A DNA stretch of 64,000 nt, taken from the NCBI RefSeq assembly GCF_947503465.1, contig NZ_CANNDN010000001.1, positions 1,364,001-1,428,000 on the forward strand, given 5' to 3'. The position numbers and the translations under genes are program-made. This stretch comes from an uncultured Tateyamaria sp. (GTDB lineage Bacteria; Pseudomonadota; Alphaproteobacteria; Rhodobacterales; Rhodobacteraceae). Of this stretch, positions 2,641 to 26,931 are shown in pieces. Below the pieces are notes generated by a model. It saw nothing but the letters and a program-made list of their open reading frames with translations. It ran no database searches and was not told the DNA's origin. The stretch's first letter is position 1; every line of letters begins with the position of its first letter.

Positions 2641-3693
2641 ATGGGCGCGATCACACTGAATGCTGTCGAAAAGTGGTATGGCGAGGTGCAGGTCATCAAG
2701 GGCGTCGACCTTGAGATCAAGAATGGCGAGTTTGTCGTCTTTGTCGGCCCGTCCGGCTGTGGCAAGTCCACGCTGCTGCGCATGATCGGCGGGTTGGAGG
2801 ATATCAGCCGGGGATCGCTGGACATTGACGGCACGGACGTGACGGACCAGCCGCCGTCCAAGCGCGGTTTGTCCATGGTGTTCCAGTCCTATGCGCTCTA
2901 TCCGCATATGTCGGTGCGCGACAATATGGGGTTTTCGTTGAAGACCGCAGGCGCGCCCAAGGCCGAGATTGCCGAGAAGGTGAACACCGCCGCCGACACC
3001 CTGAAGCTGGACCAGTATCTGGATCGCCGCCCCAAGGACCTGTCCGGCGGGCAGCGCCAGCGGGTGGCCATTGGCCGGTCCATCGTGCGCGACCCCACGG
3101 CGTTCCTGTTTGACGAGCCCCTGTCGAACCTTGACGCCGCCCTGCGGGTCGAGATGCGCTACGAGATTTCCAAGCTGCACCAGGCGCTGTCGGCCACCAT
3201 GATCTATGTCACCCATGATCAGGTCGAGGCGATGACGCTGGCCGACCGCATCGTGGTGCTGGACGCGGGCCGGATCATCCAGGTCGGCACCCCACGTGAC
3301 CTCTATAACCGCCCCGGCAACGTGTTCGTGGCCCAATTCATCGGCAGCCCGAAGATGAATGTGTTTGCCTGTGCGACGGACAGCGGCAGCTATACCGTAC
3401 CCGGCGGGCGCGGTGGACCGTACGCCTTGGGTGGTGTTGCCACACACATGGGCATCCGGCCCGAACACATCACGGTTGGCGCGCCCGGCAGCGGCCAGTG
3501 CGATGGCACCGTTGACGTGATCGAATATCTGGGCGCCGATACGTTTGTGCTGCTGGATTGCGGTGCGGCGGGTCAGATCAACGTGCGGATTTCAGGCGAC
3601 GCGGATTTGACTGTGGGCGATCTGGTGGGCCTCACCTTCGCCCCAGAGCGCACGCACTTCTTTGATGCGGACGGAAACACGATCAAGGCTTAG
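2641..3693 (+). CDS. Sugar ABC transporter ATP-binding protein (UgpC/MsmK type)
   Basis: ATPase of the CUT1 importer, about 350 aa. Walker [10 protein letters not shown] is at residues 36-44, followed by the signature LSGGQRQR, Walker B FLFDEP, the D-loop LSNLDAALR and the switch His in [10 protein letters not shown]. The C-terminal hundred residues form the TOBE-type regulatory domain usual for this group. I chose the ATG at 2641 because AAGGAG at 2628-2633 is seven bases upstream; an ATG at 2635 overlaps the hydrolase stop and is the alternative. It is the last gene of the importer operon. Confidence 0.92.
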
Positions 3694-3716
3694 GCGCGCT
3701 TTGCCATGGGGGGCAT

Positions 3717-3778
3717 GCATATTTGAAGAACAATGAATACAAGGGCACAACTGCACCTTCATTGTTCCAAAAATATGC
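3717..3778. terminator. Imperfect inverted repeat between convergent genes, possible bidirectional terminator
   Basis: Arms 3717-3737 and 3758-3778 match in 18 of 21 positions as inverted repeats, each starting or ending GCATATTT and containing GAACAATGAA. Both arms resemble the A/T-rich tail of the dispersed repeat at 94-151. The position between the ends of the ABC ATPase gene and the otnC gene suits a transcript-ending hairpin serving both strands. There is no clean T run, so the terminator role is inferred. Confidence 0.45.
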
Positions 3779-3824
3779 ACTGTGTACGGCCCGACCCGGG
3801 CGCAAGGGTCGCGGCAATGCGCGC

Positions 3825-4475
3825 TCAGGCGTCCCAGTCCACGTCAAACCTTGTCACAACCGCCTGCACCTGATCCGGCGTCAACCCCTGTGCGCCCATC
3901 CCGCGGGTCATCAGCGCCAAGCGCGCCGTGTCCTCCAACTCCTCGATGGCGTTGCATGCCGCCTCCACATCCTTGCCCGCCACGACCGGGCCATGGTTCG
4001 CCAGCATCACCGCTGACCGCTTGCCGGCCAGCCCCCGCACGGCCGCGCCCATCGCCGGATCACCGGGCAGGAAGAATGGCAACAACTGCACCTTGCCCAG
4101 CTTCATGATCCCGTAGGGCGTCAGCGGTGGCAGGAAATTGTCCGCATCGGCCGCCGGCAGCATCGACAGCGCCACCGAATGACACGCATGCAAATGCACC
4201 ACCGCTCCGGCACTGCTGCGCGTGTCGTAAAAGGCCGTGTGCAACGGCATCTCCTTGGTGGGCGCATCCCCCGCCACATGCACACCCGCCGGATCAAACC
4301 GCGCAAGCCGCCCCGGATCCAGCCGCCCGAAACTCGTACCCGTGGGCGACACCAGCACCCCGCCATCCTCGGTCCGGGCCGAGATGTTGCCGGTGCTGCC
4401 ATGGGTCAGCCCCCGGTCAAACAGCGACTTGGCCAGCAGGCACATCTGTTCGCGCAACGCGGTCTCGGTGCTCAT
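3825..4475 (-). CDS. otnC: 3-oxo-tetronate 4-phosphate decarboxylase (class II aldolase family)
   Basis: Zinc-dependent class II aldolase/adducin-type enzyme, 216 aa. It is expected to decarboxylate 3-oxo-tetronate 4-phosphate to dihydroxyacetone phosphate in the catabolism of four-carbon acid sugars. Visible motifs are GSTGNISAR near residue 25, the metal-binding stretch VVHLHACHS, and ANHGPVVAG. Its start overlaps the stop of otnK by ATGA, so kinase and decarboxylase are coupled. The kinase-decarboxylase pairing is the main reason for preferring OtnC over L-fuculose-phosphate aldolase. Confidence 0.85.
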   Translation of the reverse strand: MSTETALREQMCLLAKSLFDRGLTHGSTGNISARTEDGGVLVSPTGTSFGRLDPGRLARFDPAGVHVAGDAPTKEMPLHTAFYDTRSSAGAVVHLHACHSVALSMLPAADADNFLPPLTPYGIMKLGKVQLLPFFLPGDPAMGAAVRGLAGKRSAVMLANHGPVVAGKDVEAACNAIEELEDTARLALMTRGMGAQGLTPDQVQAVVTRFDVDWDA

Positions 4476-5704
4476 GCCCCCAGCACCCTGTCGGCTTTTT
4501 CAAAGAAATCCTCGGCCCCGAAATTGCCGGACTTCAGCGCCACAACCAGGTCAGGTCCCGCGCGCAGGGCCGGCACGCCGGGGTCGATCTCGGGCCCGAT
4601 GTCCAGCGTGGTCAGGCCCAGCCCTTCGACCACCGCGCCCGATGTCTCGCCGCCTGCGGTGATGATCCGGGTTGCGCCGCCCGCGCGCACGCTGCGCGCC
4701 ACATCGGCAAAGAACGCTTCCAAGGCCGTTGCCGACGCCGCACGTCCGAACCGATCCTGCACATCGCGCACGACGTCCGGGTCCGCCGAGGAATACAGCA
4801 GCGGCAGATCGTCCTGCCCCAGCGCCCACTCCGCCGCCTGCGCAGCCGTCAATCGCCCTTCGATCACATCCGCGGCCAGCACCTCGCGCACCGGATGGCG
4901 GGCCGCGTGATGGGCGACTTGCGCCCGCGTCGCGATGGAACAGGACCCCGACAGGGCCACCGCCTTGCCGCCCTGCCCGGTCCACGGCACAGCGCCCGCA
5001 ACACAGCCGAAATTCGCAGGCAGGCCCAGCGCCACGCCGGACCCGCCGGTGATCAGCGGCAACTCCGCCGCCGCCGTCCCGATGGCGCGCAAATCCTCAT
5101 CCCGGATCGCATCGACCACAATGTGGCGCTTGCCCGCCGCGTGTTCACCCTGCAGCGCGTCCCGGATCGCACCTGCCCCCTGAAACACCGCACCTGCCCC
5201 CACATGCCCCACCTCGTACCGGGTCTGCAGGGCCAGCCACCGGCGCAGGTCCGGATCCGTCATCGGCGTCAGCGGATGGGACTGCATGCCGCTCTCGCTC
5301 AGCAACACGTCATTCACGAAAAGATGGCCCTGATAGACGGACCGCCCCGTGCCCGGAAAGGCCGGGCAGACAATGACCTGATGGGCGTCCAGCGCCTCGG
5401 CGAGCGCATCGGCGACGGGGCCGATATTGCCCTCCGGCGTGGAATCGAAGGTCGAACAATACTTGAAAAAGACCTGCGTGCAGCCCTGCGCCAGCAACCA
5501 GTCCAGCGCCTCAAGCGACCGCGCCACGGCGGCGCCGGGATCAATCGACCGGGACTTCAACGCCACGACACCGGCCTCGACCGACGGGTCGGCGTCACCC
5601 GCAGGCACGCCCGTATACTGCGTCACCCGCATGCCTTCCTTGGCCAGCGTGTTGGCCAGGTCACTCGACCCGGTAAAATCGTCCCCGATACATCCCAGTT
5701 TCAC
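4472..5704 (-). CDS. otnK: 3-oxo-tetronate kinase (four-carbon acid sugar kinase family)
   Basis: Kinase of the OtnK/DUF1537 family, about 410 aa, predicted to phosphorylate 3-oxo-tetronate for the adjacent decarboxylase. The N-terminus carries GDDFTGSSD, the centre FFKYCSTFDSTPEGNIG, and the C-terminal nucleotide domain TAGGETSGAV, all typical of the family. I start at GTG 5704 because the family begins directly before the KLGCIGDDFTG segment; an open frame continues further upstream but with no similarity. No dehydrogenase or transporter for the pathway is adjacent. Confidence 0.88.
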   Translation of the reverse strand: MKLGCIGDDFTGSSDLANTLAKEGMRVTQYTGVPAGDADPSVEAGVVALKSRSIDPGAAVARSLEALDWLLAQGCTQVFFKYCSTFDSTPEGNIGPVADALAEALDAHQVIVCPAFPGTGRSVYQGHLFVNDVLLSESGMQSHPLTPMTDPDLRRWLALQTRYEVGHVGAGAVFQGAGAIRDALQGEHAAGKRHIVVDAIRDEDLRAIGTAAAELPLITGGSGVALGLPANFGCVAGAVPWTGQGGKAVALSGSCSIATRAQVAHHAARHPVREVLAADVIEGRLTAAQAAEWALGQDDLPLLYSSADPDVVRDVQDRFGRAASATALEAFFADVARSVRAGGATRIITAGGETSGAVVEGLGLTTLDIGPEIDPGVPALRAGPDLVVALKSGNFGAEDFFEKADRVLGA

Positions 5705-5888
5705 GGCACTGCCCCCCTGTTTGCAGGCAAACAAGCATCCACACGCCCGCAATGGCAAGCCCATGCGCCGCGCAGCCCGAAATTTCGGAATTTCCCGGGC
5801 GGCACATCGCCCCGCGCCCTCTTGCGGACACCGGGCGCGCGCCTGTAGGTTTGCGCAAACATCGACAACCCTGAAAGGGGGCGCATCC
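5705..5888. promoter_or_regulatory. Divergent promoter region with a 12-bp palindrome
   Basis: This 184-bp gap separates otnK (minus strand) from the KAS III-like gene (plus strand). It contains the perfect palindrome CCGAAATTTCGG at 5777-5788, a plausible operator for a dimeric regulator acting on either gene. No regulator gene is adjacent, so the role is speculative. Confidence 0.3.
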
Positions 5889-7016
5889 GTGGCTTTCTCC
5901 CCAGCGATCACCGGCACAGGCGTGTTCACGCCGGAACAATCCATCTCCAACGCTGAACTGGTCAAGGCATTCAACGCCTATGCGGACCTCTACAATGCGG
6001 AACACGCGGACGCGATCGCAGCGGGCACAACCCCCGCCAAGGACCATTCCTCCGAAGACTTCATCGTGAAGGCGTCCGGGATCGAAAGCCGCTACGTGAT
6101 GAACAAGTCCGGCGTGCTGGACCCCACGGTCATGCACCCGCTTTTGCGCCAGCGCAGCGACGACGAACCGTCGATCATGGCCGAAATGGCGGTGGATGCC
6201 GCGCACAAGGCGCTGGCCCAGGCGGGCAAGACAGCGGCGGACGTGGATGCGGTCATTTGTGCTGCGTCGAACCTGGAACGCGCCTATCCCGCCGTCGCCA
6301 TCGAAATTCAGGACCTGCTGGGGATCGAAGGGTTCGCCTTCGACATGAACGTCGCCTGCTCGTCCGCCACCTTCGGCATCCAGGCCGCGGCCGACATGGT
6401 GCGCTCAGGCTCCATCCGCTCAGCGCTGGTGGTGAACCCTGAAATCTGCTCGGCCCACCTGGAATGGCGCGACCGCGATTGCCACTTCATCTTCGGCGAC
6501 GTGGCGACGGCCACCCTGATCGAACGGGCCGAAGACGCAAAAGGCCCCTATTTCAAGATCAGATCGACCCGCTGCGGCACCGCCTTTTCCAACAACATCC
6601 GCAACAACAACGGCTATCTGCGCCGGTCGCGTCCCGACGGGATGGCCGACCGCCGCGACATGCAGTTCATGCAGAACGGGCGCAAGGTGTTCAAGGAGGT
6701 GCTGCCGCTGGTCAGCAAGCACATTGCCGACCACATGGGCGACGAAGGCGTGACAGCCGCAGACCTGAAACGGCTGTGGCTGCACCAGGCCAATAAATCC
6801 ATGAACGACTTTATCGGAAAGAAAGTACTGGGGCGCGATCCCGCCCCGGGCGAACAGCCCAACATCCTGCAGGACTATGCCAACACGTCGTCCGCCGGGT
6901 CGATCATCGCGTTTTCAAAGTATTCCGATGATCTGGGCGATGGGGACAAGGGCATCATCTGCTCGTTCGGGGCCGGCTATTCCGTCGGGTCCGTCCTGGT
7001 CGAACGGCACGGGTAA
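5889..7016 (+). CDS. Beta-ketoacyl-ACP synthase III-like protein (FabH-like)
   Basis: Thiolase-fold condensing enzyme, 375 aa. The catalytic triad is visible: Cys157 in NVACSSATFG, His in WLHQANKSM, and Asn in YANTSSAGS. It is longer than canonical FabH (about 320 aa) and resembles the subgroup that includes the Pseudomonas beta-ketodecanoyl-ACP synthase PA3286, with an insertion after the first strand. It could therefore condense medium-chain acyl-CoA with malonyl-ACP; the acyl specificity is an inference. The GTG start at 5889 has an AAGGGGG ribosome-binding site and matches the family N-terminus ITGTGVFTP. Confidence 0.82.
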   Translation: MAFSPAITGTGVFTPEQSISNAELVKAFNAYADLYNAEHADAIAAGTTPAKDHSSEDFIVKASGIESRYVMNKSGVLDPTVMHPLLRQRSDDEPSIMAEMAVDAAHKALAQAGKTAADVDAVICAASNLERAYPAVAIEIQDLLGIEGFAFDMNVACSSATFGIQAAADMVRSGSIRSALVVNPEICSAHLEWRDRDCHFIFGDVATATLIERAEDAKGPYFKIRSTRCGTAFSNNIRNNNGYLRRSRPDGMADRRDMQFMQNGRKVFKEVLPLVSKHIADHMGDEGVTAADLKRLWLHQANKSMNDFIGKKVLGRDPAPGEQPNILQDYANTSSAGSIIAFSKYSDDLGDGDKGIICSFGAGYSVGSVLVERHG

Positions 7017-7052
7017 GGCTGCCACCGTCCCGCCCGGTGGCAGCCTCCGGGG

Positions 7053-7523
7053 TCAGCCCTTGTGCCGCAGCCGCAAGGTTTCGACCCCGACCGCTGCGCC
7101 CACGCCGATCTCCCCTGATACGGACACGGGCTGCAGGGTAAACGAGCGGTCCAAACCGCCAATCAGGGCATGCACACCGGCACCGGCGCCCACGGACGCA
7201 TCTGCCGATGCCCCGATATATCCGCCTTCCAGTGCGCCCTCTTTCACACCGCTTTGCGGCGCGAAGACGTACCAGACCAGCGTCTGTTCGTTGCTGGTGG
7301 ACAGGTCCACGCCAACCTTGCGGATGGTGCCGGTGAACCGGTCGGTGCGCCCGCTGGCCGATGTGAAGTCGCAGTCATACTTGGCGCTGGAATAGACGAC
7401 AAAATTGGCCTCGTTGGATTGGTGGCAGGTCAGCACACCGGTGGCCACACCCCCGGCAGAGGCCGCCATCGGGGCGACAACGGATGCGGCGGCAAGGGCA
7501 ATCAGCTTCAGGTTGGACGTCAT
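7053..7523 (-). CDS. DUF992 family exported protein
   Basis: Exported protein of 156 aa with a Sec signal peptide (hydrophobic core LIALAAASVVAPMAASA, cleavage near residue 23). The mature part has the DUF992 pattern: GVLTCHQS, YDCDFTS, FTGTIRKVGVDL, and a glycine/alanine-rich C-terminal half. The two Cys could form a disulfide in the periplasm. The function is unknown. It is a single gene that converges on the KAS III-like gene. Confidence 0.8.
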   Translation of the reverse strand: MTSNLKLIALAAASVVAPMAASAGGVATGVLTCHQSNEANFVVYSSAKYDCDFTSASGRTDRFTGTIRKVGVDLSTSNEQTLVWYVFAPQSGVKEGALEGGYIGASADASVGAGAGVHALIGGLDRSFTLQPVSVSGEIGVGAAVGVETLRLRHKG

Positions 7524-7750
7524 GGATCAGGTTCCTTGGGTTAAGACCGCCCGACAGGGGCGGCGTCGTCTTGATGCATCACCACGTAATGGGGACCATT
7601 CGGTTCACAACCCTGGAAACCTGTAACATCGAACACGTCTGGGAAACCGCCCGTTACCGGGCGCGGCGCGCGGCGCCCGTCACGGGGGGGCGTGTCGCGG
7701 GTCCATATGGTGGGGCGGGCCCGGGGCGGACCCCGGGGCGCGGGCGGCGT

Positions 7751-8332
7751 CTACCCGTCGCCCACCGCATCGCGCCAATGCTTGCGGCACAGCGATACAT
7801 AGGTCTCGTTGCCGCCGATCTGGACCTGCGCGCCATCGGTGATCGTGCGCCCCGTCGCATCCTGCCGGATCACCATCGTGGCCTTCCTGCCGCAATGGCA
7901 GATCGTGCGCACCTCGCGCATCTCGTCGGCCAAGGCCAGCAGCGTGGCCGATCCGGGAAACAGCTTGCCCTGAAAGTCGACCCGCAGGCCATAGCACATG
8001 ACCGGCAGGCCCAGGTCATCCACGGCGCGAGCCAGTTGCCACACTTGCGGTTCGGTCAGGAACTGCGCCTCGTCCACGAACACGCACGCCACGGGACCCT
8101 CCGACCGGCGCGCCATCAGCCTGGCGAACAGATCGTCGTCGCGGGTGAATGTATCCGCCTCTGCGCCGATCCCGATACGCGAGGCGATGCGCCCGGCCCC
8201 GGCCCGATCATCGAAGGACGCGGTCAGCAGATAGGGCTGCATGCCCCGTTCGCGGTAATTGTGCGCGGCCTGCAACAGCACGGTCGATTTGCCCGCATTC
8301 ATGGTGGAGTAATGGAAGTACAGCTTGGCCAT
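7751..8332 (-). CDS. tdk: Thymidine kinase
   Basis: Salvage enzyme that phosphorylates thymidine to dTMP, 193 aa, type II thymidine kinase. The P-loop STMNAGKST is at residues 9-17, the Walker-B-like stretch VFVDEAQFL is present, and the C-terminal lasso domain carries zinc ligands in CHCGRK and CRKHW. I start at the ATG before AKLYFHYST, which matches the family N-terminus; an upstream in-frame start adds 12 residues without similarity. It appears monocistronic. Confidence 0.93.
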   Translation of the reverse strand: MAKLYFHYSTMNAGKSTVLLQAAHNYRERGMQPYLLTASFDDRAGAGRIASRIGIGAEADTFTRDDDLFARLMARRSEGPVACVFVDEAQFLTEPQVWQLARAVDDLGLPVMCYGLRVDFQGKLFPGSATLLALADEMREVRTICHCGRKATMVIRQDATGRTITDGAQVQIGGNETYVSLCRKHWRDAVGDG

Positions 8333-20487: not shown

Positions 20488-21234
20488 ATGACGTCCCCAG
20501 CTGCCTTGCGCCTACCGCGCGCGCCCTACGACCGCTATACGACTCCCATGGCCCAGCCCGACTCCATACCCGTGCGCACGTTCGAAGTTGCTGCGCTGCG
20601 TGCGGATGGGTCGCGCAGCATTGCCACGTTCAAGGCCCCGGCCCTGCCGCTGTTCGAGGCCGCGTTTTCCGCCTTTGCGCGCGGTGTTGTCCTTGCCGGT
20701 CCCGGCGGCGGTATCGCGATCGAGGACCTGCAACCGGGCGATTGGCTGAACACCACCGCGGGTGACCCGGCCCAGGTTGTCTGGATCGGATCGTCCAGCT
20801 TCGTGCCGTCGGACACGGGCCGCCGCATGCCCTTGATCCGCGTCATGGCCGACAGTTTCGGCCAGAACCGCCCAAGTTCGTTTATCACCGTGGGCCCCGG
20901 TGCCCGCCTGCTCCAGACGCCGGCGCATCTGCGCGGCACCACCGGCGGCGGGCCCGTCCTGACACCGGCCGCGGCATTTGTGGACAACGTGAACGTGATC
21001 GAGGTGACGCCCCCCACGCCGATCCGTCTGTTCCACATCTGCCTGACGCGCCATGCGGCGGTGGATGTGGGCGGCATTGCCGCCGAGACGTTCCACCCCG
21101 GCCTGAGCGCAACCCGGCAGGTGACCCATGCCCAGCGCGATCTGTTTCTGTCGATGTTCCCGCACATCGCCCATGTCACGGATTTCGGCCCGCTTGCGCA
21201 TCCCCGCGCCCCCGAGCAGGACGTCGTGGCCTAG
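20488..21234 (+). CDS. Hint (Hedgehog/intein)-domain protein with a degenerate catalytic start
   Basis: Protein of about 248 aa with a Hint_2-type domain of the kind frequent in Rhodobacteraceae. The block IAIEDLQPGDWL followed by VVWIGSSSF is diagnostic, and RHAAVDVGGIAAET resembles the C-terminal Hint strands. In family members the domain opens with a Cys (CFxxGT); here the aligned position reads AFARGV, so the nucleophile is missing. I chose ATG 20488 for its GAGG ribosome-binding site; ATG 20419 is in frame but lacks one. It overlaps the lrp-type gene tail to tail by CTAG. Confidence 0.72.
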   Translation: MTSPAALRLPRAPYDRYTTPMAQPDSIPVRTFEVAALRADGSRSIATFKAPALPLFEAAFSAFARGVVLAGPGGGIAIEDLQPGDWLNTTAGDPAQVVWIGSSSFVPSDTGRRMPLIRVMADSFGQNRPSSFITVGPGARLLQTPAHLRGTTGGGPVLTPAAAFVDNVNVIEVTPPTPIRLFHICLTRHAAVDVGGIAAETFHPGLSATRQVTHAQRDLFLSMFPHIAHVTDFGPLAHPRAPEQDVVA

Positions 21235-21731
21235 GCCGACTTTGCCAGCCGCTCTTCCAGCACATCAAACGGCACGCCGGGGGCATCCTTGGCCTGCCGG
21301 ATCACCAGCGACGTCTTGACCGACGCCACGTTCGGCGTGGTCAGCAGTTCGCCCGTCAGAAAGCTTTGGAAGCTGGACAGGTCGGGTGCGACGCATTTGA
21401 GGATGAAATCCACCTCGCCGTTCAGCATGTGGCATTCACGGACCAGCGGCCAGGCGCGGCACTTGTTCTCGAAGGCGCTCAGGTCGGCTTCGGCCTGGCT
21501 GGCGAGGCCCACATTGGCGAACACCTGCACTTCGAACCCCAGTTCGTGGCTGTCCACATCCGCGTGGTAGCCGCGGATATAGCCGCTTTCCTCGAGCGTG
21601 CGCACCCGACGCAGGCAGGGCGGAGCCGAGATTCCCACCCGCTTGGCCAATTCCACATTGGTCATGCGCCCGTCGGCCTGCAGCTCTGCCAGGATTTTTC
21701 GGTCAATCGGATCGAGTCGCGTACTTGCCAT
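21231..21731 (-). CDS. Lrp/AsnC family transcriptional regulator
   Basis: DNA-binding protein of 166 aa. The N-terminal HTH reads LDPIDRKILAELQADGR then VELAKRVGISAPPCLRRVRTLEESG, and the C-terminal RAM domain spans the last 90 residues. Members sense amino acids and form octamers. The gene is divergent from trxB with a 191-bp gap, an arrangement that suggests it may control trxB as well as itself. Confidence 0.92.
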   Translation of the reverse strand: MASTRLDPIDRKILAELQADGRMTNVELAKRVGISAPPCLRRVRTLEESGYIRGYHADVDSHELGFEVQVFANVGLASQAEADLSAFENKCRAWPLVRECHMLNGEVDFILKCVAPDLSSFQSFLTGELLTTPNVASVKTSLVIRQAKDAPGVPFDVLEERLAKSA

Positions 21732-21922
21732 GGACAGCCCCCGTGAATTTTGCGGTTGTTATAACAGCAATGCGCGCGTGCGCAATAAAGTTTCACAGAT
21801 GCGCAATATTCCGAAATGCAGACCCGGCGTGCGGTGCAACCCGGCTGCCCAAATCGCCGCTTCAAACCCGGGCCTGCCGCGTCTATATCAGACGGGCTTT
21901 CACTTCACCGATGGGGGTCAAA
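21732..21922. promoter_or_regulatory. Divergent lrp-type/trxB promoter region
   Basis: Short AT-rich parts here (for example GTTGTTATAACAGCAATGCG near 21757-21776, which contains the palindrome GTTATAAC) contrast with the surrounding GC-rich sequence and suit overlapping divergent promoters with an Lrp-family site. Individual boxes are not certain. Confidence 0.35.
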
Positions 21923-22918
21923 ATGGCTGAGACGAAGCGCACCAAGGTTCTGATCATCGGGTCCGGCCCCGCAGGGTACACCGCAGGCGTGTATGCCAGC
22001 CGCGCGATGCTGAAGCCGATCCTGGTCCAGGGTATCGAACCCGGCGGGCAGCTGACCACAACCACCGAAGTCGAGAACTGGCCCGGCGACACCGAGGTCC
22101 AGGGCCCCGACCTGATGATCCGCATGCAGGAGCACGCAGCGGCGATGGGCACCGAAATCATCGGTGACATCATCACCTCGGTCGACTGGTCGAAACGTCC
22201 CTTCGTCGCACAGTCCGACAGCGGCACCGAATATGTGGCCGATGCCGTGATCCTGGCCACCGGCGCCCGCGCCAAGTGGCTCGGCATGGCGTCCGAAGAG
22301 AAATTCAAGGGCTTCGGCGTGTCGGCCTGTGCCACCTGCGACGGCTTCTTTTATCGCGGGCAGGAGATCGTGGTGATCGGCGGCGGCAACACGGCGGTGG
22401 AAGAGGCGCTGTTTCTGACCAACTTCGCCTCGAAGGTCACGCTGGTGCACCGCCGCGACGAACTCAGGGCCGAAAAGATCCTGCAGGACCGGCTGTTCAA
22501 GAACCCCAAGATCGAACCGCTGTGGTTCCACCAGCTTGAAGAGGTCTATGGCACCGACAACCCGCTGGGTGTCGAGGGGGTCAAGGTCAAGAATGTGCAG
22601 ACGGGCGAGATCACGGACATCCCGGCCAAGGGCGTGTTCATCGCCATCGGTCACGCGCCGTCGAACGAGTTGGTCAAGGATGTGCTGGACACCCATATGG
22701 GCGGCTATGTCGTGACCAAACCCGACAGCACCGAAACGTCGATTCCGGGCGTCTTTGCCGCGGGCGACATCACCGACTGGCAATACCGCCAGGCGATCAC
22801 ATCCGCGGGCATGGGCTGTCAGGCAGCGCTCGAGGCCGAACGCTTTCTTGCCGAACACGACCTCGACGCGGGCAAGGACATGACCGCACCGCTGGGCTAT
22901 GGCGCCGTGGCGGAATAG
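21923..22918 (+). CDS. trxB: Thioredoxin-disulfide reductase
   Basis: Flavoprotein of 331 aa that reduces thioredoxin with NADPH. The FAD motif LIIGSGPAGYTAGVYASRA is at the N-terminus, the redox pair is C136-A-T-C139-D-G, the NADPH motif VVIGGGNTAVEEALFL follows, and the second FAD motif is GVFAAGDITDWQYRQA. I start at the ATG before AETKRTK, which fits the family. It is slightly longer than E. coli TrxB at the C-terminus. Confidence 0.95.
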   Translation: MAETKRTKVLIIGSGPAGYTAGVYASRAMLKPILVQGIEPGGQLTTTTEVENWPGDTEVQGPDLMIRMQEHAAAMGTEIIGDIITSVDWSKRPFVAQSDSGTEYVADAVILATGARAKWLGMASEEKFKGFGVSACATCDGFFYRGQEIVVIGGGNTAVEEALFLTNFASKVTLVHRRDELRAEKILQDRLFKNPKIEPLWFHQLEEVYGTDNPLGVEGVKVKNVQTGEITDIPAKGVFIAIGHAPSNELVKDVLDTHMGGYVVTKPDSTETSIPGVFAAGDITDWQYRQAITSAGMGCQAALEAERFLAEHDLDAGKDMTAPLGYGAVAE

Positions 22919-22926
22919 GTCCGCGC

Positions 22927-22987
22927 CTTCTTCTGACCAGAAATACGACGGGGTGAGGCCGCAAGGCCGAGGGGCAGCGCCCCTGCC
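22927..22987 (-). repeat. Dispersed repeat, copy B
   Basis: Read on the minus strand, this is a GGGGC...GCCCC hairpin followed by GGCC-TTGC-GGCC, then CACCCCGTCGTATTTC and a tail TGGTCAGAAGAAG. It matches copy C at 47334-47390 closely and copy A at 94-151 in the hairpin part. It lies in the gap between trxB and the adenylate cyclase gene. Confidence 0.7.
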
Positions 22988-23049
22988 CCGGCTTGACCCA
23001 CAGCGCACATGTCGCCAGCTTGGGCGCATATTGCAGGGAACGGGCAAAC

Positions 23050-24738
23050 ATGGCGCAGGCAATCTGGCGTGGCAGTTGGGCGACACGTGTCAGGATCATA
23101 AGCGGACTGATCCTGATGCTGTACCTGACCCTGCACATCATGAACATCGCCGCGATCCTGATCTCGCCCACGGCGTTCGACCTGTTCCAGGCCGCGCGGT
23201 TATGGGTCACGCGGTCCGACGTGGGCACCGTGATCGTGGTCGGCGCGATGCTGTCACACATGATCCTGTCGCTGGGCAAGGTCGTGGTCTCGCGCACCTT
23301 GCGCATGCCCCTGACCGACTGGGTGCAGCTTGTGCTGGGCCTGCTGATTCCGCTGATGCTGGTGGATCACCTCGTGTTCACGCGCGCCGCACACGAGATG
23401 TTGGGCGTCAACACCATGCTTGGTTACGTCACCCGGTTGATCTGGGACACGACCGATGGCTGGGGCCAGGCGGCGCTGCTGATCATCGCGTGGGTCCATG
23501 GCTGCATTGGCATGCATATGTGGCTGCGGCTGACAGACTGGTGGCAGCGCTGGGTGCCCTGGCTGATCGGCGTGGCCGTGACGCTGCCCATTCTGGCCCT
23601 TGTGGGCTATGTCACCTTTGCCCGCACCATCGATGGATTGCTGAGCAATCCGCAGGGGGAACAGGTGGCCCATGCCGCCTGGAACTGGCCGGATGCCGAC
23701 GGCTTTGCCGCACTGACCACGGCAGCCACGAACATGACCTATGCCGTGTGGGCGGTGCTGGGCCTTGCCATTGCCGCCTTCCTTGTGCGCCGCATCTATG
23801 CCGCGATCGCGCGGCCCATCCGCATCCATTATGTGGACGGGCCCAGCGTGCGGGCCCCGCGGGGCCAGACCATCCTGCAAACCTCGCGCATCAGCGGCGT
23901 GCCCCATACCGCGCTGTGTGGCGGACGGGGTCGCTGCACGACCTGCCGCGTGATCGTCGAGGATGGGTTGGACGACCTGCCCGCCCCGTCCGAGGCCGAA
24001 GCGCGCAGCCTTGCGGCCGTGGGCGCGCCGCCAAACGCCCGGCTGGCCTGTCAGGTCCGCCCCGGGCAATCCGTGCGCGTCTTTCGCGTCTTCGACCGGG
24101 ACGGCAAGCAAAGCCGCGCCCATGCAAGCCAGGGGAAAGAGGCGCAACTGGCGGTTCTGTTCCTGGACATGCGCGGGTTTACCGCGCGCACGGACGGGCA
24201 GCTGCCCTATGATGTGGTGCACCTGCTGAACCGCTTTTTCGACGAGATCGTGCCCCCGATCAACGCCGCCGGCGGCACGGTGGACAAGTATATGGGTGAC
24301 GGGTTGATGGCCGTATTTGAACAGAACAGCGCCAAGGCATCGGCCAAGGCCGCGATCGACGCGGTGCAAGGGGTCGGCACTGCGCTGCGCGGCTTCAACT
24401 ACAAGCTGGCCGGTGAAGGCAGCGCGCCCGTTGCCATCGGCATCGGCGTGCATCTGGGCAATGTGGTGTTGGGTGAAATCGGAGCCGCCGGGCAAGCGCC
24501 GCGCACGTTGATCGGCGATACGGTGAATATCGCGTCGCGTCTGGAGAGTGAAACCAAGACCTTGGGCGCGCAGGCGTTGATCTCGATTGATGTCATAAAT
24601 GCCGCAGGGATGACTGCGCCTCACAGCGCGCGAATCTCGTTGAACCTGCGTGGGCGCGATGCACCGCTTGGCGCCGTCGCGCTTGAGGACGCCGCGGATG
24701 CGCGTGTGTTGAGGTCGGGCATGTCCCGCACCGCCTGA
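23050..24738 (+). CDS. Membrane class III adenylate cyclase with a cytochrome-b-like anchor and [2Fe-2S] ferredoxin domain
   Basis: Protein of 562 aa in three parts. Residues 15-250 hold about six membrane helices with His at 29, 70, 107, 115, 150 and 155, resembling the SdhC-like dihaem b anchor. Residues 257-345 are a plant-type ferredoxin with Cys 290, 296, 299 and 334 (C-x5-C-x2-C-x34-C). Residues 364-555 are a class III cyclase with metal Asp373 and Asp417, adenine-selecting Lys413, and Asn493/Arg497 in GDTVNIASRLES, so it should make cAMP. The architecture recalls Sinorhizobium meliloti CyaC, described as quinone-responsive. The ATG at 23050 begins the first amphipathic segment. Redox control of cAMP synthesis is an inference from the domains. 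Confidence 0.88.
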   Translation: MAQAIWRGSWATRVRIISGLILMLYLTLHIMNIAAILISPTAFDLFQAARLWVTRSDVGTVIVVGAMLSHMILSLGKVVVSRTLRMPLTDWVQLVLGLLIPLMLVDHLVFTRAAHEMLGVNTMLGYVTRLIWDTTDGWGQAALLIIAWVHGCIGMHMWLRLTDWWQRWVPWLIGVAVTLPILALVGYVTFARTIDGLLSNPQGEQVAHAAWNWPDADGFAALTTAATNMTYAVWAVLGLAIAAFLVRRIYAAIARPIRIHYVDGPSVRAPRGQTILQTSRISGVPHTALCGGRGRCTTCRVIVEDGLDDLPAPSEAEARSLAAVGAPPNARLACQVRPGQSVRVFRVFDRDGKQSRAHASQGKEAQLAVLFLDMRGFTARTDGQLPYDVVHLLNRFFDEIVPPINAAGGTVDKYMGDGLMAVFEQNSAKASAKAAIDAVQGVGTALRGFNYKLAGEGSAPVAIGIGVHLGNVVLGEIGAAGQAPRTLIGDTVNIASRLESETKTLGAQALISIDVINAAGMTAPHSARISLNLRGRDAPLGAVALEDAADARVLRSGMSRTA

Positions 24739-24855
24739 AGGCGTCGTTACGCATTTACCACAATTGCGAATATCTGCCGTGAGGCAAAGTTCGTTCTGGC
24801 ATGAACAAACATTTTGTGAGATGCGTTCACGCGTGAACAAAGTCAGCCAGTCCAG

Positions 24856-26931
24856 ATGCCCACCGCAGTGAAACCCAACCCAGACAGCGATGACCAGCTG
24901 TTCCGCCTGTTGCGCCAACTGGATGAGGCCCCCGGTGCCACGCAACGCGCGATGGCGCAGGGCATCGGCGTATCGCTTGGACGCCTGAACGCCCTGTTGC
25001 GGCAGGCAACGCAAGCCGGATTTGTCGCGGTGGGCGCGACGGATGGTCCCGACAAACGCCAACGCTTTTCCTATGCGCTCACCTCGCGTGGGGCCGGAGA
25101 GAAGAACCGCCTCACTGACCAGTTTCTCGCCCGCAAATTTGCGGAATACGACGCCCTCTATGCCGAGTTGACCGGCACCACGTCAGGGCTTAACCCCCTG
25201 AAACACAGGACTAAATTGATGGAAAACAACCTCGCTCCGATCTCTGAGCTCTATGTGTCTTACGACAGTGCCCAGAAGATGAAACTGGACGCAGCCGACC
25301 TGGTCAGCTGGGATCTGACGCCGCGCCAGATCTGTGATCTGGAACTGTTGATGAACGGTGGTTTCAACCCGTTGAAAGGGTTCCTGTCCGAGGCCGATTA
25401 CAACAGCGTTGTGGACACCATGCGCACCGCCGATGGCGCGCTGTGGCCCATGCCCATCACGTTGGATGTAAACGAAAAATTTGCGGATACCCTCGAGATC
25501 GGACAGGACATTGCCCTGCGCGATCAGGAAGGCGTGATCCTTGCCACCATGACTGTGACCGACCGCTGGACACCCAACAAGGCGCACGAAGCCGCGCAAG
25601 TATTTGGCGCGGACGATAGCGCGCATCCGGCCGTGAATTACCTGCACAACACCGCTGGCGACATCTATCTTGGCGGTCCCGTGACCGGCATCCAGCAGCC
25701 TGTGCACTATGATTTCCGTGGTCGTCGCGACACGCCCAACGAATTGCGCGCCTATTTCCGCAAGATGGGCTGGCGCAAGGTCGTGGCCTTCCAGACCCGC
25801 AACCCGCTGCACCGCGCGCACCAGGAACTGACCTTCCGCGCCGCGCGCGAGGCGCAGGCCAACCTGTTGATCCACCCCGTCGTGGGCCTGACCAAGCCCG
25901 GCGATGTGGACCATTTCACCCGCGTGCGCTGCTACGAGGCGGTGCTGGACAAGTATCCGCAGGCCACCACTTCCATGTCCCTGCTGAACCTGGCCATGCG
26001 TATGGCTGGCCCCCGCGAGGCGGTGTGGCACGGTCTGATCCGCAAGAACCACGGCTGCACCCATTTCATCGTGGGCCGCGATCACGCGGGCCCCGGCAAG
26101 AATTCCGCCGGCGAGGATTTCTATGGCCCCTATGATGCGCAGGACCTGTTCCGCGAGCATCAGGAAGAGATGGGCATCGAGATGGTCGACTTCAAACACA
26201 TGGTCTGGGTGCAGGAACGCGCCCAGTATGAGGCCATCGACGAGATCAAGGACAAGGATGACATCACCATCCTCAACATCTCGGGCACCGAGCTGCGGCG
26301 TCGCTTGCAGGAAGGGCTTGAGATCCCCGAATGGTTCTCGTTCCCCGAGGTGGTCAAGGAATTGCGCAAGACCAAGCCGCCGCGGTCGCAACAGGGCTTT
26401 ACCGTGTTCTTCACCGGCTTTTCCGGGTCAGGCAAGTCGACCATTGCCAACGCGCTGATGGTCAAGCTGATGGAGATGGGCGGGCGTCCCGTGACCCTGC
26501 TGGATGGCGACATCGTGCGCAAGAACCTGTCTTCGGAACTGGGCTTTTCCAAGGAACACCGCGATCTGAACATCCGCCGCATCGGCTATGTCGCGTCCGA
26601 GATTACCAAGAATGGCGGGATCGCGATCTGTGCGCCCATCGCGCCCTATGCCACGACCCGCCGTGCCGTGCGCGAGGATGTGGAGGCCTTCGGGGCCTTT
26701 GTCGAGGTGCACGTGGCCACGTCCATCGAGGAGTGCGAGCGGCGGGATCGCAAGGGGCTTTACAAGCTGGCGCGCGAGGGCAAGATCAAGGAATTTACCG
26801 GCATTTCGGACCCCTATGATGTGCCCGCAAATCCCGAATTGAGCGTCGAGACAGAGAATGTGGACGTGGACAATTGTGCGCACCAGGTCCTGCTGAAACT
26901 GGAGAGCATGGGGCTGATCGCGGCGCAATAA
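24856..26931 (+). CDS. Bifunctional sulfate adenylyltransferase/APS kinase with an in-frame MarR-like N-terminal domain
   Basis: One uninterrupted frame of 691 codons. Residues 13-105 match an EPS-associated MarR-type winged helix (ATQRAMAQGIGVSLGRLNALLRQA, then LTSRGAGEKNRLTDQFLARK). From Met122 (ATG 25219) the remaining 570 residues are a complete Sat-CysC enzyme: ATP sulfurylase with QTRNPLHRAHQEL and GRDHAGPG, then APS kinase with P-loop GFSGSGKST. It makes APS and PAPS from sulfate. The shorter product would match the usual length, and ACAGGA lies eight bases before ATG 25219, so internal initiation is possible. Whether the cell makes a true fusion, two proteins, or both is open. A strong terminator follows. 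Confidence 0.85.
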   Translation: MPTAVKPNPDSDDQLFRLLRQLDEAPGATQRAMAQGIGVSLGRLNALLRQATQAGFVAVGATDGPDKRQRFSYALTSRGAGEKNRLTDQFLARKFAEYDALYAELTGTTSGLNPLKHRTKLMENNLAPISELYVSYDSAQKMKLDAADLVSWDLTPRQICDLELLMNGGFNPLKGFLSEADYNSVVDTMRTADGALWPMPITLDVNEKFADTLEIGQDIALRDQEGVILATMTVTDRWTPNKAHEAAQVFGADDSAHPAVNYLHNTAGDIYLGGPVTGIQQPVHYDFRGRRDTPNELRAYFRKMGWRKVVAFQTRNPLHRAHQELTFRAAREAQANLLIHPVVGLTKPGDVDHFTRVRCYEAVLDKYPQATTSMSLLNLAMRMAGPREAVWHGLIRKNHGCTHFIVGRDHAGPGKNSAGEDFYGPYDAQDLFREHQEEMGIEMVDFKHMVWVQERAQYEAIDEIKDKDDITILNISGTELRRRLQEGLEIPEWFSFPEVVKELRKTKPPRSQQGFTVFFTGFSGSGKSTIANALMVKLMEMGGRPVTLLDGDIVRKNLSSELGFSKEHRDLNIRRIGYVASEITKNGGIAICAPIAPYATTRRAVREDVEAFGAFVEVHVATSIEECERRDRKGLYKLAREGKIKEFTGISDPYDVPANPELSVETENVDVDNCAHQVLLKLESMGLIAAQ

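Follow-up and report, generated by a model that had tools for sequence, protein, structure and literature searches.

Redox-regulated adenylate cyclases of the CyaC type are the closest described systems to the gene treated here, and the primary paper on the S. meliloti enzyme is reportedly that of Wissig et al. (2019). In the parts of their paper drawn on here, Beltz et al. (2016, PMC4821796) describe a cluster 1 of 30 class IIIb cyclases from alpha and beta proteobacteria in which a ferredoxin domain lies between the membrane and catalytic domains, as in the R. palustris protein Q132R4; the anchors of this cluster are cytochrome-b-like with four precisely spaced intramembrane histidines, and two haems are predicted. 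S. meliloti CyaC (SMc01818) is presented in the corresponding parts of Klein et al. (2023, PMC10463352) as a dihaem-B cyclase which signals through cyclic AMP (cAMP) and whose haems can be oxidised or reduced by ubiquinone. The legend to Fig. 6 of the latter paper states that CyaC activity can rise after quinone oxidation and marks a distal haem, a proximal haem and a [2Fe-2S] cluster. Here we analysed a stretch of 64,000 nucleotides (the window) from contig NZ_CANNDN010000001.1 of an uncultured Tateyamaria sp., in which a cyaC-like gene at 23050-24738 encodes a protein of this kind.

The window protein is a CyaC-type redox-regulated class IIIb adenylate cyclase, an architecture that is already known, and every sequence-level feature of the family that was testable was found in it. 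No difference in kind was found between the protein and cluster 1 as described in those parts of the 2016 paper. By description, S. meliloti CyaC is also composed of a hexahelical dihaem-B anchor resembling that of succinate dehydrogenase (SDH) or fumarate reductase, a [2Fe-2S] module and a class III cyclase. A preliminary description of the window had named CyaC but treated the iron-sulfur module as an addition to it. This claim is not supported, because the ferredoxin defines the 2016 cluster and the published drawing of CyaC includes a [2Fe-2S] cluster. The gene and its parts are listed below, where rows are those of a 77-row alignment of full-length loci.

23050-24738, + strand: cyaC-like gene, 562 amino acids; dihaem-type anchor of six transmembrane helices, [2Fe-2S] ferredoxin and class IIIb adenylate cyclase
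23050-23814, + strand: membrane anchor, residues 1-255 (AlphaFold2 model; Foldseek match to 1e7p_C)
23134-23136, + strand: His29 codon, helix 1 (77/77 rows; aligns with a His of 5xmj_C)
23257-23259, + strand: His70 codon, helix 2 (77/77 rows; aligns with a His of 5xmj_C)
23368-23370, + strand: His107 codon, helix 3 (77/77 rows)
23497-23499, + strand: His150 codon, helix 4 (77/77 rows)
23818-24087, + strand: plant-type [2Fe-2S] ferredoxin domain, residues 257-346, limits from the model (Fer2; Cys290, 296, 299 and 334)
24136-24684, + strand: class III cyclase homology domain, residues 363-545 (Guanylate_cyc; Foldseek match to 1wc1_B, E 3.9e-14)

Matches above the gathering score were found in Pfam for Fer2 (residues 266-338, E 4.4e-8) and Guanylate_cyc (residues 365-504, E 5.5e-13), while the anchor of the window protein matched no Pfam family significantly. 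An AlphaFold2 model of the whole chain, built with 49 sequences, has a mean predicted local distance difference test score (pLDDT) of 89.5 and a predicted template-modelling score (pTM) of 0.66. In it six long helices are followed by a ferredoxin-like region that starts at residue 257 and by the cyclase, which starts at residue 363, so that Pfam and the model agree on the order of anchor, ferredoxin and cyclase in a single chain. The likely start is the ATG at 23050, where relatives of the same genus also start, with MAHAIWRGS... or M-THVLWRGS.... A chance match or a wrong reading frame was ruled out by the E-values, the common start and the conservation across 77 rows. The three-module protein reported earlier at this position is therefore borne out by its domains, its model and its conservation.

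The alignment was built from loci matching from residue 40 or before to residue 500 or beyond. These are 76 loci, 24 of them from the draw of genus, family and class genomes and 52 from the 80 of a motif-pattern scan, which with the window make 77 rows (76 distinct, as L021 and L045 are identical). Loci matching the cyclase alone or Fer2 with the cyclase were left out, as was L086, which is cut by a contig end. Eleven residues were found in all 77 rows, namely His29, His70, His107 and His150 of the anchor, Cys290, Cys296, Cys299 and Cys334 of the ferredoxin and Asp373, Asp417 and Arg497 of the cyclase, with Asn493 in 75; the two patterns of the scan contain Cys290 and Cys296, or D490, N493 and R497, and selection therefore accounts for part of the conservation seen at these five positions, whereas Cys299, Cys334 and the four histidines are free of that selection. 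The alignment also confirmed the numbering given earlier for the four cysteines and Lys413, and the Fer2 match together with the invariant cysteines supports a complete plant-type set of ferredoxin ligands. These residues bear on a further reading, in which the cyclase is active and the anchor and Fer2 serve as a constitutive membrane tether that has no redox switch in the lineage of the window. As the cofactor residues are all kept in every row, including the 28 roseobacter rows, we consider such a tether highly improbable.

The class III cyclase with adenylate-type residues was likewise upheld, as D373, K413, D417, T486, N493 and R497 are all present. We take D373 and D417 to act with the metals, K413 and T486 with the purine and N493 and R497 in the transition state. 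The class IIIb label rests on Thr486, and K413 with T486 is presumably the usual class IIIb adenylate pair. In the alignment Thr486 was found in 68 of the 77 rows and Lys413 in 61. The remaining 16 rows, which include L033, L055, L063, L074, L095 and L106, carry glutamine (12), glycine (3) or asparagine (1) at position 413, and members of the family may therefore differ in the nucleotide that they select. A guanylate or mixed cyclase in the window would be in keeping with these replacements and with a close structural relative, 2w01, which is described as a guanylyl cyclase. This specificity is nonetheless very unlikely, as both K413 and T486 are present in the window protein and the other roseobacter rows, and S. 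meliloti CyaC works through cAMP.

Modelled alone, the anchor reached a pLDDT of 94.8 and a pTM of 0.89, with long helices at residues 10-37, 57-80, 88-118, 135-159, 163-198 and 216-253. The six-helix part of the earlier claim of a six-helix, His-rich anchor therefore stands, while "His-rich" is reduced to four invariant intramembrane histidines, one in each of helices 1 to 4. The even number of helices and the positively charged loops suggest that both chain ends are cytoplasmic. With that topology His29 (helix 1) and His107 (helix 3) are found near the periplasmic end of their helix, and His70 (helix 2) and His150 (helix 4) in the half of their helix that is nearer the cytoplasm. The distal (periplasmic) haem is most likely held by His29 and His107 and the proximal (cytoplasmic) haem by His70 and His150. 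Structure prediction had been proposed for finding such pairs; it places one histidine in each of the four helices, and the choice of partners is proposed from the topology.

The relationship of the anchor was approached by profile and by fold. When a profile of 62 anchors was run against PDB sequences, three chains matched at E<=10. First came 5xmj_C, a fumarate reductase chain (E 0.036, or 0.14 for the aligned stretch alone) in which His29 and His70 fall on histidines; 6lum_C, from succinate dehydrogenase, was second (E 0.06) and 8qag_A, a repeat-like chain, was third (E 0.21). At E<=1, sdhC_b558 (TIGR02046) matched 23 of the 62 anchors (best E 1.5e-5) and the Pfam family Sdh_cyt matched four. 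Foldseek superposed the anchor model on 1e7p_C, the cytochrome b of W. succinogenes quinol:fumarate reductase (QFR), with template-modelling (TM) scores of 0.52/0.53, a root-mean-square deviation of 4.6 and a probability of 0.80. This was the sole real superposition among the 50 rows listed, as the others have TM scores of 0.27 or below. Sequences and model thus give a weak but consistent indication that the anchor is related to the dihaem cytochrome b of succinate:quinone reductase (SQR) and QFR, and a new fold was dropped for QFR cytochrome b given these three results. The likeness to the QFR chains (1e7p chain C, 5xmj chain C) lies in the overall fold and the positions of His29 and His70. 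The sequence scores are weak, and the window anchor is fused to a ferredoxin and a cyclase whereas QFR cytochrome b serves a respiratory enzyme.

Several points weigh against the assignment. The window anchor scores 15.2 bits (E 0.012) against TIGR02046, for which the cut-off is 96, and has no Pfam match at E<=1. Among the Foldseek rows listed for the anchor model none reaches E<=0.001, and 1e7p_C stands 43rd by E (3.0), below, for example, ABC transporters with TM scores near 0.2. Outside the roseobacters the full-length rows share about 30-40% identity with the window protein, and the CyaC-type identity was drawn from sequences and models, with S. meliloti CyaC compared by description rather than by direct alignment. 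In addition, the gene context differs, as S. meliloti cyaC is preceded by the TetR gene cycR and the window gene by trxB, with sat/cysC following. No cycR-type gene was found among the scanned neighbours (trxB, an Lrp/AsnC regulator and sat/cysC, to which the search for TetR genes in the window was confined), and therefore the downstream wiring may differ from the CyaC-CycR-Clr complex of S. meliloti. No TetR gene was recognised by eye in the long open reading frames (ORFs) beside the gene in 19 non-roseobacter loci, where no family scan was made and some ORFs are in wrong frames. The genome of the window has nine cNMP_binding matches, eight of them over the cut-off, in a scan at family level that is not specific for Clr, and a search for cAMP receptors by regular expression gave nothing usable. 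With these points weighed, we hold the CyaC-type explanation as a whole, comprising a dihaem anchor, quinone exchange, a [2Fe-2S] cluster and redox-set cAMP synthesis, to be very probably correct.

In the CyaC-type mechanism the six-helix anchor would hold two b haems that exchange electrons with the ubiquinone/ubiquinol pool, and the ferredoxin domain, directly after helix 6, would bind a [2Fe-2S] cluster in equilibrium with the proximal haem. Depending on its redox state, this chain of cofactors would then set the arrangement of the cyclase homodimer and with it the rate of cAMP synthesis, which by analogy with S. meliloti CyaC would be raised by oxidation. We infer cofactor binding, quinone exchange, haem-to-cluster transfer and the direction of the response; the quinone response is a feature described for S. 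meliloti CyaC and is transferred to the window protein by homology, which also supports the coupling of quinone redox state to cAMP proposed earlier. In the model the linker between Fer2 and cyclase is short and of low confidence (pLDDT below 50 at residues 352-360), and because of this a conformational relay to the cyclase is at least as plausible as the passage of electrons into the catalytic domain itself. The passages of the cited papers state no mechanism for the step from cluster to cyclase, and how a membrane redox change alters the cyclase dimer is a question for the whole family. In its probable role the membrane enzyme reports, through the messenger cAMP, how far the respiratory chain is oxidised.

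All 20 genomes sampled from the window's genus, its own among them, contain the full protein, which rules out a fusion unique to one genome. It was also found in one of 17 other genomes drawn from the family and four of 24 from the class. The three-domain order was then sought across the Rhodobacteraceae in 120 genomes, one per genus, of which 13 matched a related query; 12 have the full cyclase protein and one (G098) has no cyclase. Candidates were sometimes scored only in part per genome in this search and in the 394-genome, 398-genome, short-frame and channel-subfamily (149-genome) searches, and the counts from genome draws may therefore be low. In the larger family draw 50 of 394 genomes matched at E<=1e-20, of which G098 and G445 lack the cyclase and the others were not each checked. 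The module profile matched 47 of 398 genomes drawn from the phylum, two of them over the ferredoxin alone. Cluster 1, as presented in the 2016 paper, comprises alpha and beta proteobacteria, whereas our full-length rows also come from records labelled Gammaproteobacteria, Nitrospinae, Rokuibacteriota and Spirochaetaceae, mostly metagenome-assembled genomes whose labels may be wrong. In a tree of the anchor with Fer2 all 28 roseobacter rows cluster together (Shimodaira-Hasegawa-like approximate likelihood ratio test, SH-aLRT, 99). Matches to Fer2 and cyclase with no anchor match were seen at L094, L096-L105 and L110, in records labelled Planctomycetota, Cyanobacteria, Bacteroidetes groups, Mesorhizobium and others. 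The genome of the window also has two more class III cyclase matches in a row (G000:C3:253964-256990; L002, L003, L040), in frames of 1230 and 1031 residues.

The roseobacter genes were observed to share a constant neighbourhood, which in the window consists of the following genes.

21231-21731, - strand: Lrp/AsnC-family regulator, divergent from trxB (family scan, synteny)
21923-22918, + strand: trxB, thioredoxin-disulfide reductase, upstream neighbour (TIGR01292, 394.8 bits, cut-off 343)
24856-26931, + strand: bifunctional sulfate adenylyltransferase/adenosine 5'-phosphosulfate kinase (sat/cysC), downstream neighbour (family scan, synteny)

That the gene adjoins trxB, as first described, was confirmed, trxB being upstream on the same strand. 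The first roseobacter set comprises 27 loci (L010-L029, L045-L050 and L054, one genome twice); all 27 have trxB upstream in the same orientation, no more than about 0.55 kb away, and 25 have sat/cysC downstream in the flank covered. A second set, from the 120-genome draw, includes the window and has G024 in common with the first; here trxB is upstream in 12 of 12, up to about 1.3 kb away, and sat/cysC downstream in 10; the two exceptions had no sat match in the family sat search. Short genes between trxB, cyaC and sat/cysC are possible in these counts.

This order would be explained if the protein were a thiol or sulfur-redox sensor that takes electrons from the thioredoxin and sulfur side instead of, or besides, quinones, with cAMP reporting the reductant for sulfate assimilation. 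Thioredoxin gives electrons to 3'-phosphoadenosine 5'-phosphosulfate reductase, and the counts from both roseobacter sets fit the idea. The anchor, however, is of the quinone-reactive type, and the 49 other full-length loci, outside the roseobacters, have neither trxB nor sat/cysC in the flank covered. Furthermore, among the best 30 loci from 48 family genomes with a sat/cysC match, cyaC is present in five and absent from 25, and trxB lies upstream of sat/cysC within a 1.5-kb flank in 20 of the 25 cyaC-free loci. The address may therefore be mere location, and we regard the sulfur-side reading as unlikely. Since trxB is kept upstream in those 20 loci, trxB and sat/cysC look like a backbone in which cyaC is an optional gene at a constant place, and its distribution is better accounted for by vertical inheritance and frequent loss than by gain on repeated occasions. 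The CyaC-type reading thus places a quinone-sensing cyclase in marine roseobacters, with a constant address between thioredoxin reductase and sulfate activation. No study of such a cyclase in this group was found among the listed titles and abstract starts of open-licence papers. What is new in the present analysis is this constant neighbourhood and the channel-coupled module described below.

A scan of 21700-25200 gave no promoter-like site. It gave five terminator-like sites, where shuffled sequence averaged 2.5 (standard deviation 1.6), and one of the five lies at the stop of trxB (22910-22924). The sat/cysC gene of the window begins with a MarR_EPS-like winged helix (24856-25212; TIGR04176 79.1 bits, cut-off 88), which was seen in eight of 30 family sat/cysC loci, the window included, while the matches in the other 22 begin after it. 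Beside a winged-helix sat/cysC in G693 (L237:2672-4513) stands a cyaC homologue with an in-frame stop, in frames of 402 and 203 residues; either the gene is broken or the sequence contains an error.

A search of short open frames and of 68 loci for modules that lack the cyclase gave four that lie away from contig edges.

G016, L039 2871-4208: cyclase-free anchor and Fer2 module (with channel, 2871-6511)
G098, L168 8095-6971: cyclase-free anchor and Fer2 module (with channel, 8095-4767)
G445, L236 6674-5517: cyclase-free anchor and Fer2 module (with channel, 6674-3214)
G198, L232 4920-6080: cyclase-free anchor and Fer2 module (with channel, 4920-8008)

A gene for a large MscS-type channel comes next on the same strand in all four, overlapping the module by 1 nt in G016 and 4 nt in the others, and the four histidines and four cysteines are kept in every module. 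By their codes the genomes are alphaproteobacterial and of two families, and G016 additionally carries a full cyaC downstream of trxB (L028). Among the channels of G016, G098 and G445 pairwise identity is 50-86%, and the channel of G198 is 40-41% identical to these over about 310 residues. The modules of G016, G098 and G445, all from the family of the window, form one group on long branches (SH-aLRT 99) in the tree, which was built without G198. Among 149 family genomes the close channel subfamily was found in G098 and G445 only (E 0 and 2.2e-228; next 8.5e-93). The pairing appears to be rare, as among the 398 phylum genomes a short frame matched the full module in G098 alone. Other candidates were not counted: L233 contains a cyclase start and ends 0.1 kb from a contig end, the frame changes between module and cyclase in L234/L182, L237 has the in-frame stop, and L235/L180 and G368 (a match at a contig edge) are edge cases.

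The dihaem-[2Fe-2S] unit might be a portable quinone-redox receptor with different outputs, cAMP synthesis in the window and a redox-gated MscS-type channel in the four genomes, a proposal that we put forward tentatively as possible but somewhat short of probable. Gating of the channel by the cyclase-free module is our hypothesis, and nothing relevant to such a pair was found in the titles or abstract starts among the papers listed. The cyclase-free module beside a channel would offer a second output for testing the same receptor. In G098 an FnrL gene was observed to follow the module and channel genes on the same strand (L168:4665-3922; TransRegFnrLRhodb 399 bits, cut-off 300).
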